The position numbers were made by a program, and so were the translations under genes. The notes beneath the pieces are model-generated. The model worked only from the letters and a program-made list of their open reading frames with translations, was not told the origin of the DNA and did not search any database. From Halobacteriales archaeon SW_6_65_15 (GTDB lineage Archaea > Halobacteriota > Halobacteria > Halobacteriales > Haladaptataceae): DNA of 42,046 nt. Positions 3,779-27,123 of the stretch are shown piece after piece (position 1 is the stretch's first letter; the number at the start of each line of letters is the position of its first letter). Location: positions 1-42,046 of the forward strand of contig PXSM01000077.1 of NCBI GenBank assembly GCA_003023465.1, given 5' to 3'.

Positions 3779-5200
3779 ATGCGAGGATTCACAGCGACCG
3801 TCGCGGTGCTGGTCGTCGCCGCGAGTCTCGTGGCCGCCATCCCGGCCGAGGCCGTCGGCGACCGAGTACCCGAATCCACGGGAGAACCGACGGGAGAGAT
3901 CGGTGCCCAAGAACCGCCGGACCTGCCCGAACAGTGGCGACAGACGTACGGCGCGGACGGCGACGACATGTTCTCGGACCTCGTGCGAACCGAGGACGGC
4001 GGTTACCTCGTCGTAGGCTGGACCCAGCGCGAAACCACCGAGGGCTGGGTGGTGAAGATCGACGGCGAGGGCGAGCGCGAGTGGGAGCGGACCCTCGGCG
4101 GTTCGGGCACGGACCGCTTCTGGGGCGTCGCCGAGACCGAGGACGGCTACCTGCTCGCGGGCCGGACCGACGGCGACGGCGGCACGACCACGGCGTGGCT
4201 CGTCGAGTTGAACGCCGACGGCGAGGTCCGCGAGGAGCGAACCGCCGGACCCGGGGCGTTCAACGCCATCGCCCGCGACGGGTCGGGAGCGGACTCGGGC
4301 TACCTGCTCGCCGGATGGACCAGTAGTGGAGAGGGGAAGGCGCTGAAGCTCGACGAGAACCTCTCTCGGGAGTGGCAGCAGACGTACGCGACCCCCGATG
4401 GCTACGGGAGCGGCTACCTCCGAGCCGTCGTGCCCGTCGAGAGCGAGAACGGAACCGGCGGCTACTACCTCGCCGGGAAGATCGAGGGCGACAGTAACGA
4501 CGCGTGGGCGCTGAAGGTCGGTTCCGAAGGCGACCGCGAGTGGCAGGCGACCGCTGGCAGCCCGAACAGAGACGACGCGTGGGCCGCGGCACCCGCCTCG
4601 TCGGACGCCGACGACGGATTCGTCCTCGCGGGCGAGACCGGGATCGATACCGACGACCGAAGCGGTTGGCTGGTCAAGTTCGACGCGGACGGGAGCGTCG
4701 CGTGGGAGCGCACGCCCGGCAACGGAGCCCTGTGGTTCGACTCCGCGATGAAGACCGACGACGGCTACCTCTTCACCGGAAGCGGAGACGGCGGCCCGAC
4801 CGGGGGCACCGACGGGTACGTCCTTCGGACCGGCGACGACGGGACTGCCGAGTGGGATGTCTACTACAGCACCCAAGGGTGGGACAAGCCGTGGCCCGCC
4901 ATCCGCGCCCACGACGGCGGCTACCTGCTGGCCGGACAGACCGGCGGCGACGACGGCGGTGCCAAAGACGGGTGGCTCGTCCGGATCGGAAACGGGTCGG
5001 TAGCTGGCGGACCGGACTCCGAAACCGACGAGTCTGGCGACGAAGGAAGCCGAGGCGAGACCGCCGACACCACGGACAGCGCGATCCGCGACGGGACCGA
5101 GACGACTGCGAACGACCCCGACGTGGAGGGCGTCCCGGGAATGGGGGTCGGCGCTACCCTCCTCGCTCTCGTAGTGCTCCTTCTCTTGGCCCGGCGATAA
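3779..5200 (+). CDS. Secreted repeat protein with PGF-CTERM-like anchor
   Basis: Predicted extracellular protein. The track uses GTG 3770; ATG 3779 (MRGFTATVAVLVVAASLVAA) gives a standard Sec signal peptide with cleavage around the AEA site. The body contains about seven to eight degenerate repeats of ~50 residues built on 'DGGYLLAGxT...GWLVKxDxxGxxEWxxT', a pattern typical of beta-propeller-like secreted proteins. An acidic Ser/Thr/Asp-rich linker (~residues 405-450) precedes the C-terminal 'VPGMGVGATLLALVV' segment and terminal ARR. This is a PGF-CTERM-like tripartite sorting signal with PGM in place of PGF, so it is probably processed by an archaeosortase and lipid-anchored to the S-layer side. 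Ligand and role unknown. Confidence 0.85.
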   Translation: MRGFTATVAVLVVAASLVAAIPAEAVGDRVPESTGEPTGEIGAQEPPDLPEQWRQTYGADGDDMFSDLVRTEDGGYLVVGWTQRETTEGWVVKIDGEGEREWERTLGGSGTDRFWGVAETEDGYLLAGRTDGDGGTTTAWLVELNADGEVREERTAGPGAFNAIARDGSGADSGYLLAGWTSSGEGKALKLDENLSREWQQTYATPDGYGSGYLRAVVPVESENGTGGYYLAGKIEGDSNDAWALKVGSEGDREWQATAGSPNRDDAWAAAPASSDADDGFVLAGETGIDTDDRSGWLVKFDADGSVAWERTPGNGALWFDSAMKTDDGYLFTGSGDGGPTGGTDGYVLRTGDDGTAEWDVYYSTQGWDKPWPAIRAHDGGYLLAGQTGGDDGGAKDGWLVRIGNGSVAGGPDSETDESGDEGSRGETADTTDSAIRDGTETTANDPDVEGVPGMGVGATLLALVVLLLLARR

Positions 5201-6612: not shown

Positions 6613-7038
6613 TCAGAGTTTCTCGTCGGCGTCTCGGACGAGCCGCCGGACGTGACCGAGCGAGTAGGAGACGTCGTACTCGCGCTCGATGAGCTTCCGG
6701 ACGAGTTCGGGCGTCCACGACGACGCGTCGAAGCCGTACGCCTCGGGTGAGTCGGCGATGGCGTCGAACACCGCCTCGCGCTCGCGCTCGTCGAGCTCCG
6801 ACGGCCGTCCGGGTCGGTCGTCGTCCTCGACTGCCTCCGAGAGGGGCTTGTCGGCGATGCGGTCGAGCCAGTAGTACAGCGTCGACTCGGGCACGCCGTA
6901 CCGGTCCGAGAGCGTCGAGACCGGCACGCCGTCCTTGTAGGCGATGGCGACCATCAGCCGCTTCGTCGCCTTCGGGCTCTCGGCCGCGTCGAGGTGCTCC
7001 TGCAACGCGGAGAGCGAGACACCGTCGAGCTTGTCCAT
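6613..7038 (-). CDS. IS630-type helix-turn-helix protein (transposase N-terminal domain, stand-alone)
   Basis: A 141-residue protein matching the DNA-binding half of IS630-family transposases. The first HTH lies around residues 25-60 ('YKDGVPVSTLSDRYGVPEST'). A winged-helix-like second part ('RPSELDEREREAVFDAI...WTPELVRKLIEREYDVSYS') ends in 'LGHVRRLVRDADEKL'. The DDE catalytic domain that should follow is absent: the gene stops cleanly and the downstream sequence is unrelated. It has its own promoter, with a TATA at 7063-7071 and a perfect 14-bp palindrome between TATA and ATG. That is more like a regulator than a dead fragment. It could be a domesticated transposase domain or an IS remnant. 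Confidence 0.8.
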   Translation of the reverse strand: MDKLDGVSLSALQEHLDAAESPKATKRLMVAIAYKDGVPVSTLSDRYGVPESTLYYWLDRIADKPLSEAVEDDDRPGRPSELDEREREAVFDAIADSPEAYGFDASSWTPELVRKLIEREYDVSYSLGHVRRLVRDADEKL

Positions 7039-7071: not shown

Positions 7072-7310
7072 CTACCTGTTTTATCCGGATGGACGCGCCG
7101 AAGTAACTTTCCACGAGATCGACGCCGAGACCGGAACGGGCCCGAAAGCCGGGTTTCCGAAAAGATATATGATTAGAGATTCTTTAACCACAAATACATT
7201 GTCTATAACACTTTTTCTATTTCTCAAGGTCACTAGGCTCGGCGATACTAGCCGCTGCCGTAATCCCTCGTCGTTGCCAGAGGTTGAGACGATACGTGCG
7301 TGGTGCGAAT

Positions 7311-8720
7311 CTACCGTTCTTTCGTGATGAACGGTATCGTGGCGCTGACGCCGGGTTCAGCGTCTTTTGCAGTTTCGGAGTACGAGACGCCCGGGGCGTG
7401 CCCGTCTGGCATCTCTTGGAGACGCTGACGCCGCCGCCGCTTCTTCACGTATCGATACAGCGGATACATCACGTCGTACGTCCAGTCTGGCGCATTTCGA
7501 TACGCGAACTGGAGCAGTTGCGTCGTCACGTCCCCCTGAGGCCGGTGCATATACTTGGAGAAGTCCGTCGTCAGCATCCAATCGAAGAACGCTTGGGCCT
7601 CCTCGTATCGGTCGTTCACGTCGGGTGAGACCCGCGTCTGGAGGTCCTCCCACATTATCCGTTCGTCGTTTCCAACCGGCCACTCCCGCCTCTCGAACTT
7701 GCGGGGGATTTCGTCGAACGAGTCTACGTCCAACGGATACCCGTGGTCGCTGGGGTCGAGTCCGGCTACGAACATCCCGACCGCGGTTCGATAGCACTTC
7801 TCGCAGTCTCCGCAGTTTTCGGCGACTGTTTCGTTACACGTGCGAAGTTCCAGACCTGGATTCTCCTCGCGAACGTAGTCTGCGACCGCTTCGAGACGCT
7901 CTTGACGCGTGATCTCGTACCCGTCGTGGTGACATCGAGTTCCCGCCCAGGCGACGTTCTCGACGATGCTGGGATTCGACCCCCACGGGAGCGAAATCCC
8001 GTTCCAGTGGGTCGCAGCCATGTAGAGGTCACCGATACCGTTGGCGTACGCCAGCGGTGCGCACATCCCGAGTAAGCCTACTCCGTGACCGACCGAACTG
8101 TACCATGCGCCGTCGACGTACGGTTCGCATTGAGCCTTCAGCATCCCTACGTTGAAGAGCGAATGCCTGTTCGAGCGAACGAAGTAGTTGTCGGCACCGT
8201 GGTCGGTACCGAACGCTTCGACGTGACCCTTCAGGCCATTCCACTTCTCGAATTCTACGTCGACTACCGTCCACCCTTGAATGGTGATGAGCGCGAGGTC
8301 TTCGTCGCGGTGTTGGATAAACGAGTAGGTCGAGTCAACCCCTCCAGTGAAAAGAAGGCCGGTCTCCTCGAATTCGCCAGCGGGATTCCGTTCTTCCAGT
8401 TCCTTGTAACGGAGATTTCCTCCGAGCACGAACTTCGGATACAGTTGCATCAGCGTGTCTCTCACATCGAGCAGAGAGGCTGCGAATCGCGAATCGACCG
8501 TCGGAACTCGAACGTCGGCGTTCTGAGTCCACGCGACGGGACAGACCTGTGCCAGTACCGGCAAGACGAGAATGCTGTCGGGTACGTCGTCGATACTCGT
8601 ATCGTACTCGACGAGGAAGTCCTCGCCGGAGAAGAACATACGCAGGTCTGGTGAGCAGGTAATCTTCGCCCGTAACACGTTAGTGTCCGATTTGACTTGC
8701 TCTATTGAAATCTCTGACAT
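7311..8720 (-). CDS. QueC-like PP-loop ATPase (orphan)
   Basis: About 469 residues from ATG 8720; the track's TTG at 8732 is less likely because a TATA lies at 8751-8760. Residues ~1-110 are an unrecognised N-terminal domain. A PP-loop 'LLFTGGVDSTYSF' near residue 125 marks an adenylating N-type ATP-pyrophosphatase fold. Near residue 300 the cysteine cluster 'CNETVAENCGDCEKCYRT' is the zinc site seen in QueC (7-cyano-7-deazaguanine synthase). The protein is about twice QueC length and lies apart from any queuosine/archaeosine genes. Related long QueC-like proteins occur in polysaccharide clusters and in defence systems (QatC, some CBASS). The actual substrate is unknown. The gene and its flanks are AT-richer than the neighbours, suggesting transfer. 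Confidence 0.75.
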   Translation of the reverse strand: MSEISIEQVKSDTNVLRAKITCSPDLRMFFSGEDFLVEYDTSIDDVPDSILVLPVLAQVCPVAWTQNADVRVPTVDSRFAASLLDVRDTLMQLYPKFVLGGNLRYKELEERNPAGEFEETGLLFTGGVDSTYSFIQHRDEDLALITIQGWTVVDVEFEKWNGLKGHVEAFGTDHGADNYFVRSNRHSLFNVGMLKAQCEPYVDGAWYSSVGHGVGLLGMCAPLAYANGIGDLYMAATHWNGISLPWGSNPSIVENVAWAGTRCHHDGYEITRQERLEAVADYVREENPGLELRTCNETVAENCGDCEKCYRTAVGMFVAGLDPSDHGYPLDVDSFDEIPRKFERREWPVGNDERIMWEDLQTRVSPDVNDRYEEAQAFFDWMLTTDFSKYMHRPQGDVTTQLLQFAYRNAPDWTYDVMYPLYRYVKKRRRRQRLQEMPDGHAPGVSYSETAKDAEPGVSATIPFITKER

Positions 8721-9160
8721 CTTATCCCCCAACCCTACGTGATATGCACGAATTTAATATTTATTAGTTTTCGCCACCAGCTGGTAGCTGGAAACAGCGG
8801 ATTCCCCGTCGTTTCTCGGGGAACGACTGCAGAGAACGTGGTCGTAAACGACACGATGACTACAGAACATGTGGGTTAAATCCAGAAGGTAGACGACTAC
8901 TGATTACTACGGGTCGCTTATTTCGAGGTCGTCTCACCGAAGTTCACGCTTCTCGCTCCCCGTCTATGCATCGCGATCTGAACCGCCTTTTCACTACCGT
9001 TTCAATTGTCTCTTACCGGTCGTCACCAGACCCGACTCCGGCCACCTTCTTGCTCGCCAGTTCCCACTGTCTTCGAGGTCGTGGAGTTTCGTCGCTTGCA
9101 GACACCGAGTGTCAATTACGACCCTGCAGGTTTAGACCGTGGCCCGCGTAGCCCGCGAGC
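8721..9160. other. Intergenic region between PP-loop gene and dehydratase gene
   Basis: No gene is supported. The left end holds the PP-loop promoter. At 8800-8825 'ttccccgtcgtttctcgggg' with following bases can form competing small hairpins. Just before it, 'ctggaaacagcgg' resembles an isolated half of the origin-type repeat seen near 20 kb, but without its full core. A TATA-like 'tttaga' at 9131-9136 lies about 27 bp before the ATG at 9161. Confidence 0.5.
8751..8760 (-). promoter_or_regulatory. TATA box of the PP-loop gene
   Basis: The minus strand reads 'atattaaatt' about 31-40 bp before the ATG at 8720. This AT-rich box in a GC-rich genome supports the ATG start and a short or absent leader. 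Confidence 0.5.
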
Positions 9161-20353: not shown

Positions 20354-21595
20354 ATGTCATCGTTCAGCTTCGACCGGGACAACTCCCTCTACAAGAACCG
20401 GGACGCCCTGCTGGAGGAGTACACCCCGGACAACCTCGTCGGTCGCGACGAGGAACTCGAAGAGTACCACGCCGCGCTTCAGCCGATCATCAACGGCGAA
20501 GCGCCCTCGAACATCTTCCTCTACGGGAAGAGCGGCGTGGGCAAGACCGCGGCCACCCGCTTCCTGCTCAACCGCCTGCAGGACGACGCCGCCAAGTACG
20601 ACGACATCTCGCTCAACGTCCTCGAGATCAACTGCGACGGACTCAATTCGAGCTACCAAGTTGCCGTACGACTCGTCAACACGCTCCGGGACCCCTCCGA
20701 GCAGATCAGCAACACGGGCTACCCGCAAGCACAGGTGTACAGCTTCCTCTGGGAGGAACTCGACGAGTTGGGCGGGACCATCATCGTGGTCCTCGACGAG
20801 GTCGACCACATCAACGACAACTCCATCCTCTACCAGATTCCTCGCGCCCGGTCGAACGGCTACCTCGAAGACGCCAAGATCGGCCTCATCGGTATCTCCA
20901 ACGACCTCTCCTTCCGCGATTCGCTCTCCGCCAAAGTCCGCTCGTCGCTCTGTGAGAAGGAGGTCTCGTTCCCACCCTACGACGCCACCGAACTCCAGAA
21001 GGTCCTCAGCCAGCGCGAGGAGGTGGCGTTTCACGACGGCGCGCTCGCCGACGACGTGATTCCGCTCTGTGCCGCCTACGGTGCGCAGGACGCGGGTGAC
21101 GCCCGGCAGGCGCTCGACCTCCTGCTCGAAGCAGGCGACCTCGCGAGGAAGGAAGCGGTCGATCAGGTCACCGACGGACACGTTCAGGAGGCCCGCGAGA
21201 AGCTCGAACGCGACCGCATCATGGAAGGCGTCGCCGACCTGACCGAACACGCCCGACTCGTCCTCTACGCCCTCACCTCGCTCGAAGCCGAGGGCGAGAC
21301 CCCCGCGCGCTCCAGAGACATCCGACCCCGGTACGAACAACTCTGCAACCACGTCGGTACCGAACCCCTGACCAGTCGCCGGATGCGCGACCACCTCGCG
21401 GACCTCGCGATGCTCGGGGTCATCTCCTCGACGGAGAAGAACGAGGGCATGTCCGGCGGCAAGTACCGCGAACACGCCCTGAAGCAGGAACTCCAGCTCG
21501 TCGTCACCGCGCTGGAGGAGACCATCGAGTTCGCGGGCGTCCACGAGAGCATCCGACCCTACTACCAGACGACGTTCGAGGACGCCGAGAGCTGA
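20354..21595 (+). CDS. orc1/cdc6: Orc1/Cdc6 replication initiator
   Basis: 413-residue archaeal origin-recognition ATPase. Residues ~1-230 are the AAA+ module: N-terminal 'LVGRDEELEEYHAAL', Walker A 'YGKSGVGKTAATRF', Walker B 'IIVVLDEVDHI', sensor 1 'LIGISNDLSFRDSL', and box VII/arginine region 'VRSSLCEKEVSFPPYD'. Lid domain to ~290 with 'GAQDAGDARQALDLL' (sensor 2 'DARQAL'). The C-terminal winged helix (~300-410) contains 'LVLYALTSLEAEGETPARSRD' and 'EPLTSRRMRDHLADLAMLGVI', the part that contacts the ORB. It binds the flanking repeats and recruits MCM. ORB-like clusters on both sides make it the cognate initiator. Which paralogue group it belongs to needs a tree. Confidence 0.95.
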   Translation: MSSFSFDRDNSLYKNRDALLEEYTPDNLVGRDEELEEYHAALQPIINGEAPSNIFLYGKSGVGKTAATRFLLNRLQDDAAKYDDISLNVLEINCDGLNSSYQVAVRLVNTLRDPSEQISNTGYPQAQVYSFLWEELDELGGTIIVVLDEVDHINDNSILYQIPRARSNGYLEDAKIGLIGISNDLSFRDSLSAKVRSSLCEKEVSFPPYDATELQKVLSQREEVAFHDGALADDVIPLCAAYGAQDAGDARQALDLLLEAGDLARKEAVDQVTDGHVQEAREKLERDRIMEGVADLTEHARLVLYALTSLEAEGETPARSRDIRPRYEQLCNHVGTEPLTSRRMRDHLADLAMLGVISSTEKNEGMSGGKYREHALKQELQLVVTALEETIEFAGVHESIRPYYQTTFEDAES

Positions 21596-25830: not shown

Positions 25831-27123
25831 TTATTCTTCGGTTCTGACTGGCCCATCAATGCCGGGTTCATTCACGGCTGTTATCTCGAATCGGGCTCCA
25901 CCACTCGCACTCTCCGTGATTTCTATCGTCCAGTTGTAGATATCGACCAGATGTTTCACGAATGCGAGACCGAGTCCGTTTCCGGTGTCACTCGTCGTAA
26001 ACCCTGCGTCAAACACTTCGGTACGCTGTTCCTCTGGGATTCCATTCCCAGTATCCGCGACGTAGAAACCAGTCGGAAGCCCTCCCACACGGACCGCTAC
26101 ATCACCATCATTATGCGAGACTGCATTTCGGAACAGATTTTCAAGGATATGCTGGAGATGTATTGGATCAACATTTACACGGCGGTCGGTTTCAATGAAC
26201 AATTCACTTTCCGTCGGTTCGATTGGCTTCCAGGCTTGTTCAGCAATTGGACGGATCTTGACCGTTTGCCGGTCAAGCGTTGCGTCGCTACCCCGCGTCG
26301 TCACTAATAAGACATCAATCATTTCTTCGATTCGCCCGAGTGCGTCGTCAACCTGTTGGACGGCATCCTGATTGCCTGTGGCGGCTTGTTGGAGATAGAC
26401 TTGGGCGATGGTGAGGGGATTCCGGAGTTCGTGCGCTAACATATTGGCGAACGTTTCTAACCGGTTATTTTGTTGTTTTAAGCGCTCATTTTGGTTTTCT
26501 AATCGGCGTTCGTACTGGATGCGCTCTGTCAAATCGCGGGTCACTTTGATAAACCCGAGCAGGTCTCCAGTCGAATCGTACACGCTCGAAATGACGACGT
26601 CTGCCCAAAACCGCGATCCGTCCTTCCGTACCCGCCACCCTTCATCCTCCATCCGTCCATTTGCCACTGCTTTCTCGAGATTCTGCTCGGGGACGCTCTC
26701 TGCGATATTCGATTCAGTGTAAAAGATGGAAAAATGTTTCCCAATCGCCTCCTCTTTCCGGTACCCTTTCTTCCGTTTTGCACCTTGATTCCACGTCTGA
26801 ATGTACCCCTCCGCATCCAATACAAAAATCGCATAATCGACGACGGCATCCACAAGTTCCTCAAACTGTAGATCGTTCATCTTTTGCTTTTTGGAGGCCG
26901 TATAGCTTTCCTGCTCCGGAAGATACCACCAAATCCGCTTGTTTTCTCTGGTTTGCTTGGTCTCTAAAACGCCTTCATCAGCCAAATCAATCAGCACATT
27001 TTGCACTTCCTTCGTTGACTCTCCCACTACCTCTGCGAGTTCACGAACCGTAAACGGCGTACTGGAGTCAAACGCATTCCGGACGGTGCTGAAATCAACC
27101 CCCGTCGACCCTTTTTCGCCCAT
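25831..27123 (-). CDS. wHTH-PAS-histidine kinase (compositionally atypical)
   Basis: 430 residues. An N-terminal winged-helix domain (~5-70, 'VRELAEVVGESTKEVQNVLIDLADEGVLETKQ') is followed by a PAS domain (~85-205, 'YAIFVLDAEGYIQTWNQGAKRKKGY', 'WRVRKDGSRFWADVVISSVYD'), a short coiled-coil linker, HisKA with 'NMLAHELRNPLTIAQVYLQQ' (His ~232), and HATPase_c with N-box 'LFRNAVSHND', G1 'ADTGNGIPEEQ', G2 'TGNGLGLAFVKH'. An N-terminal DNA-binding domain fused to a kinase is unusual. The gene is clearly AT-richer than its neighbours, with codons such as TTT, TTG and AAA. This suggests horizontal acquisition. ATG 27123; a TATA-like 'aacttattga' on the minus strand lies around 27147-27156. Confidence 0.9.
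   Translation of the reverse strand: MGEKGSTGVDFSTVRNAFDSSTPFTVRELAEVVGESTKEVQNVLIDLADEGVLETKQTRENKRIWWYLPEQESYTASKKQKMNDLQFEELVDAVVDYAIFVLDAEGYIQTWNQGAKRKKGYRKEEAIGKHFSIFYTESNIAESVPEQNLEKAVANGRMEDEGWRVRKDGSRFWADVVISSVYDSTGDLLGFIKVTRDLTERIQYERRLENQNERLKQQNNRLETFANMLAHELRNPLTIAQVYLQQAATGNQDAVQQVDDALGRIEEMIDVLLVTTRGSDATLDRQTVKIRPIAEQAWKPIEPTESELFIETDRRVNVDPIHLQHILENLFRNAVSHNDGDVAVRVGGLPTGFYVADTGNGIPEEQRTEVFDAGFTTSDTGNGLGLAFVKHLVDIYNWTIEITESASGGARFEITAVNEPGIDGPVRTEE

Follow-up and report, generated by a model that had tools for sequence, protein, structure and literature searches.

A predicted PP-loop ATP pyrophosphatase inserted alone into a haloarchaeal locus belongs to an unnamed family of surface-glycan clusters

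The window, that is, the whole stretch of 42,046 nucleotides that was analysed, carries a gene for a PP-loop protein that we interpret, with a probability of roughly 0.6, as an ATP pyrophosphatase of glycan clusters which would activate a glycan-precursor carboxylate by adenylation and join it to an amine, and which is present here as a single-gene insert. We infer the chemical part of this reading, adenylation and amine coupling, from the precedents of QueC and QatC. The features concerned are the following.

7311..8720 (-), gene of the PP-loop protein, 469 aa, with its ATG start at 8720
8382..8720 (-), N-terminal domain, residues 1-113, beta-beta-beta-alpha-beta-alpha-beta, AlphaFold2 pLDDT 94.8
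8331..8348 (-), PP-loop TGGVDS, residues 125-130, ATP pyrophosphatase signature
7794..7838 (-), four-cysteine motif CNETVAENCGDCEKC, residues 295-309, QueC-type site presumed to bind zinc
7314..7400 (-), predicted disordered C-terminal tail, residues 441-469, pLDDT below 50
7083..9130 (no strand), insert separating the HTH gene from the dgoD-like gene, about 2.05 kb, ends only roughly placed

The reading frame is open from 7311 to 8732 (-). The best start is the ATG at 8720, which aligns with the start position in the relatives and gives the length of about 469 residues proposed in a first-pass annotation. According to the translation and the AlphaFold2 model, TGGVDS is placed between a strand (119-123) and a helix (128-136), i.e. 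an SGGxDS-type loop occupies the first strand-helix junction in a Rossmann-like domain, as in PP-loop ATP pyrophosphatases. The cysteines are laid out as C295-x7-C303-x2-C306-x2-C309. In an alignment of 50 family members conservation was 94-100% for GG and D in the PP-loop and 98-100% for the four cysteines. Because these residues are near-invariant, the PP-loop and the four-cysteine motif that had been pointed out earlier are real signal conserved across the family and not chance. The same alignment contained 48 columns with at least 80% conservation; the window protein keeps 46 of them and departs at P142L and D253V. The family signature is roughly [FL][ST]GG[VI]D[SA] followed by C-x6-9-C-x2-C-E-K-C-x-R-T, the first cysteine gap being x7-x9 in nearly all members. 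The C-terminal tail (441-469) was private to the window protein and absent from its aligned relatives.

A six-frame search matched 102 of the 394 genomes of the same order, mostly in family f8, recognised as Natrialbaceae through plasmid records, with identities up to 50%. When the window protein was used as a single query against GTDB contigs no match was obtained, while a profile scan of genome contigs built on a 12-sequence alignment added bacteria (Flavobacteriaceae, Opitutae, Bacillota, Psychrobacter, Alphaproteobacteria and Dehalococcoidia) and further archaea (Methanobrevibacter and Bathyarchaeota). Searches of the window protein against Pfam, NCBIfam and PADLOC models and PDB sequences returned nothing useful, and phage records gave no match; a RAP-domain match at E 0.15 was dismissed as chance. 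The unnamed family lies out of range of every model in Pfam, NCBIfam and PADLOC. Two or three PP-loop gene copies were found in tandem at eight loci (L034, L051, L112, L119, L123, L127, L131 and L143), which suggests paired or specialised versions.

The AlphaFold2 model of the window protein, computed from the family alignment, had a pLDDT of 87.6 and a pTM of 0.85. It consists of the N-terminal domain (1-113), the Rossmann-like PP-loop domain, the cysteine site, a helical C-terminus and the disordered tail. Foldseek against viral models ranked QueC first (probability 1.00, E 1.2e-4), and the whole model against the PDB retrieved only weak matches to PP-loop enzymes, e.g. TtuA, TilS and MnmA. 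The N-terminal domain, described earlier as unfamiliar, was predicted confidently as a separate unit of about 115 residues (pLDDT 95) with no named counterpart. Searched alone against the PDB its best match was non-significant (E 0.014); the top chains included RT, the UvrC C-half and RNase H, all with E above 0.01, so that the resemblance to RNase H-like folds was weak and non-significant.

The profile search suggested by the first-pass annotation found QatC-like proteins as the nearest relatives and no named model. Profile-profile comparison with haloarchaeal QatC-like proteins gave E 1.5e-7 over 171 columns spanning the PP-loop and the cysteines, and that with annotated QatC gave E 2e-6 over 83 columns around the PP-loop. 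The values for congeneric QueC (E 0.0027, 196 columns) and for the NadE control (E 0.0015, PP-loop part only) were weaker. Reversed-profile controls gave E 0.18-0.77, with 0.18 for the haloarchaeal QatC-like comparison. Judged from these values against the reversed controls, the window protein is therefore placed within the QueC/QatC superfamily and outside QueC and QatC proper. Among the matches of family members QueC was the top Pfam and PADLOC family; eight of the 50 members matched PF06508 weakly, below the cut-off (best E 0.0023). DUF6395 (PF19932) was matched weakly by 3-6 members, also below the cut-off (best E 0.0045), and was dropped as a parent family, no gene exceeding its cut-off in 19 family-carrying genomes.

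That the window protein is a housekeeping QueC is very improbable, even though it has the fold found by Foldseek and the motif order of that enzyme: an SGG-D-S loop and then C-x7-C-x2-C-x2-C, where QueC has C-x8-C-x2-C-x2-C after its PP-loop. It is twice as long as QueC, is without the catalytic motifs VPxRN and YPDC of QueC (PMC13329287), and has no match at the cut-offs of PF06508 and TIGR00364, scoring nothing against the QueC models. Moreover, a separate canonical QueC was present in its own genome and in all 17 congeners searched. In its own genome the canonical gene lies on another contig (G000:C161), where the match at 3909-4546 is split into a pair of overlapping segments, 3909-4178 and 4163-4546; a frameshift in the gene or the assembly is the probable cause. 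No queD or queE was found beside the relatives in annotated plasmid neighbourhoods, and the neighbours in the window are an HTH gene and an MR_MLE gene. The statement that no queuosine genes occur nearby thus held, and homology to a housekeeping QueC with conserved synteny, which would have spoken against an orphan, was looked for and not found.

The normal home of the family is the surface-glycan cluster, of capsule, exopolysaccharide or glycoprotein-glycan type, and this is well supported. In annotated plasmids the haloarchaeal copies were surrounded by genes for glycosyltransferases, flippases, a polysaccharide deacetylase, Gfo/Idh/MocA oxidoreductases, epimerases and an alkaline-phosphatase-like protein, and the bacterial copies by pyruvyl transferases, glycosyltransferases, GalU and UDP-glucose dehydrogenase. 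A glycan-type gene was located within 8 kb in 55 of 65 haloarchaeal and 27 of 32 non-haloarchaeal loci; for loci without annotation the genes were called and labelled in this analysis, and some of these assignments are generic. The earlier suggestion that QueC-like proteins of this kind go with polysaccharide clusters was confirmed by these counts. Such clusters were found across lineages but not at the window locus itself. In most Flavobacteriaceae loci the order was epimerase, UDP-sugar dehydrogenase, flippase, PP-loop gene, pyruvyl transferase and glycosyltransferase; a UDP-sugar dehydrogenase was labelled in 16 loci overall.

The commonest Pfam family among the close non-haloarchaeal neighbours (n=86) was the PF04230 pyruvyl transferase with 18 matches, followed by Polysacc_synt with 12. 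In 18 genomes, which were picked partly after the neighbour labels had been seen so that the frequency over all loci is lower, PF04230 was matched 38 times in about 65 Mb (1-4 copies per genome). It lay within about 4 kb of the PP-loop gene in all 18 by coordinates converted by hand, an arrangement with a chance of about 1% per genome. No pyruvyl transferase was among the labelled genes of the haloarchaeal clusters, and a role on pyruvate ketals therefore cannot be general. At L114 (7759-9564, -) and similar places in Natrialbaceae, about 40 loci in all, a protein of about 600 aa is encoded divergently from the adjoining PP-loop gene; it had no Pfam match, and NCBI names a relative DUF6541. 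Its homologues at E 1e-20 were found in 248 of 394 genomes, distant homologues being so common that co-occurrence is blurred, and its closest homologues (about 49% identity or more) were confined to Natrialbaceae.

As the nearest profile match is QatC-like, we considered whether the protein works like QatC or Cap9, conjugating a deazaguanine-type carboxylate to a partner protein in anti-phage defence. QatC and Cap9 are the members characterised outside nucleoside synthesis (PMC13279940; PMC11996544). The window protein and QatC share a PP-loop followed by a four-cysteine site, a C-terminal extension and an extra region ahead of the PP-loop. The full profile alignment reached back to residue 62, but with the N-terminal domain alone the similarity to the QatC N-terminal region was not significant (E 0.017). 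The cysteine spacing also differs, x6-9 in the window family versus about x19 in QatC. The window protein had no NCBIfam match and no PADLOC match; the QatC model (NF041925, cut-off 280 bits) was matched by two of the 50 members with a best E of 0.044, below that cut-off. Neither qatA, qatB or qatD partners nor a CBASS operon with CD-NTase and Cap10, as accompanies Cap9 in type IV CBASS, was found in the annotated neighbourhoods of the relatives; no qat operon or CBASS partner was annotated or labelled beside the loci examined, and the window neighbours are the HTH and MR_MLE genes. PADLOC matches among neighbours were sporadic, few and of mixed kinds, with no recurring system. The contexts of the relatives are glycan loci and not defence islands, and we consider the defence function improbable; the association with defence systems raised in the first-pass annotation is unsupported. 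QatC-like proteins of about 420-490 aa were present in several haloarchaeal genomes (L175-L182) and scored 87-147 bits against the QatC cut-off of 280.

That PP-loop chemistry can serve in glycan loci has a precedent in the N-acetyl sugar amidotransferases (NASAT; WbpG, WbuX and LpNASAT; PMC10607449). They have the same broad anatomy, a PP-loop and a tetracysteine zinc site, and occur in the same kind of surface-glycan cluster (PMC10607449), and the window family might likewise form an amidine on the N-acetyl group of a sugar. In these enzymes, however, the tetracysteine motif CxxC...[GN]xCxxC precedes the PP-loop (PMC10607449), with the cysteines of LpNASAT at 44-82 and its PP-loop at 122-127, whereas all four cysteines of the window family are downstream of the loop, as in QueC. 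None of the 50 members matched a NASAT family in NCBIfam or Pfam. We therefore regard amidine formation as unlikely.

Under the preferred reading, carboxylate activation in glycan clusters, the first step would be cleavage of ATP to AMP and PPi, which is implied because the PP-loop is intact. Uronic acids and pyruvate ketals are natural carboxylates in such clusters. The enzyme could adenylate the carboxyl group of a glycan precursor, belonging to a uronic acid or, among bacteria, to a pyruvate ketal, for subsequent attack by ammonia or another amine to give an amide-type modification, in the manner of QueC and QatC, where carboxylate adenylation is followed by amine attack (PMC13329287, PMC13279940). 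The Cys4 zinc site would be structural, and the N-terminal domain might help to hold the substrate. In this genome the protein would modify a glycan whose synthesis is encoded at another place in the assembly, which is incomplete, or it may be a passenger drifting towards loss of function. A wider proposal, which we offer tentatively and at somewhat below even odds, is that a widespread, unnamed branch of the QueC/QatC superfamily tailors the glycans of both archaea and bacteria by a reaction not previously described, in which ATP would drive the formation of an amide or the conjugation of an amine at a carboxylate, for instance that of a uronic acid or a pyruvate ketal.

The QueC scaffold is used for 7-deazaguanine base synthesis and, as recently recognised, for protein tagging in phage defence. 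If the wider proposal is true, the scaffold would serve a third purpose, in addition to making nucleobases and conjugating proteins in defence. A broad glycan-locus family with its ATP and cysteine sites kept would extend the QueC scaffold to surface sugars and supply a definite gene to account for unknown substituents on the glycans of haloarchaea and bacteria. It would also caution against calling all orphan QueC-like genes defence genes. In a survey of PF06508 (PMC13329287) polysaccharides, glycans and glycosyltransferases are not mentioned, and no relevant paper was found in the literature on a PP-loop enzyme beside a pyruvyl transferase.

The gene is indeed an orphan, standing alone at its locus. 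The HTH gene (6613-7038) and the dgoD-like gene were conserved in ten Halorussus congeners that are without the insert, and by DNA similarity these flanking genes match Halorussus megaplasmids, which identifies Halorussus as the genus of the host. The stretch between them measures 2122 bp here versus 98-215 bp in the ten congeners, from which a single-gene insert of about 2 kb was deduced, the PP-loop gene being its only recognisable gene. The GC content of 55.9% at 7090-9130, compared with 64.0% for the window, bore out the AT-rich patch described before, though the GC content is about equally low around 21 kb and around 25 kb. Neither target duplication nor terminal repeats were found at the insert, only short chance-like repeats. 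In the tree the main Natrialbaceae clade was the sister group of the window protein (support 97), and the three congeneric Halorussus copies fell elsewhere; given the long end branch of the window protein (1.06), its precise position is less secure than that support value implies. Taken together, one gene has been inserted into the HTH-dgoD locus of a Halorussus, acquired horizontally from a lineage near Natrialbaceae. Of the island with an HTH protein that had been proposed, horizontal acquisition stands, but the HTH gene is a resident, conserved in the congeners lacking the insert; the insert is one gene in about 2 kb and not an island with its regulator.

Given the distance from any glycan gene, P142L, D253V and the long branch, the function of this copy may be altered or lost. 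Loss of function as a passenger, i.e. a horizontally acquired gene without its cluster, would fit the solitary position of the gene, the end branch, both substitutions and the finding that its own genome (assembly 62% complete) yielded no homologue of the protein encoded beside the gene in Natrialbaceae. Set against this, the frame is open over 469 codons, and the 46 conserved positions kept include the PP-loop and all cysteines. We consider a passenger unlikely. Two other congeneric copies (L048 and L049) are likewise outside recognisable glycan clusters. Elsewhere in the window, the start of the protein encoded at 20354-21595 (+) resembles, by eye, an Orc1/Cdc6 replication initiator with an AAA P-loop. 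Since the dgoD-HTH locus is on megaplasmids in named Halorussus, the contig may itself derive from a megaplasmid. In another AT-rich patch, a 430-codon ORF at 25831-27123 (-) with a low GC3 of 0.54 is possibly a second acquired gene.
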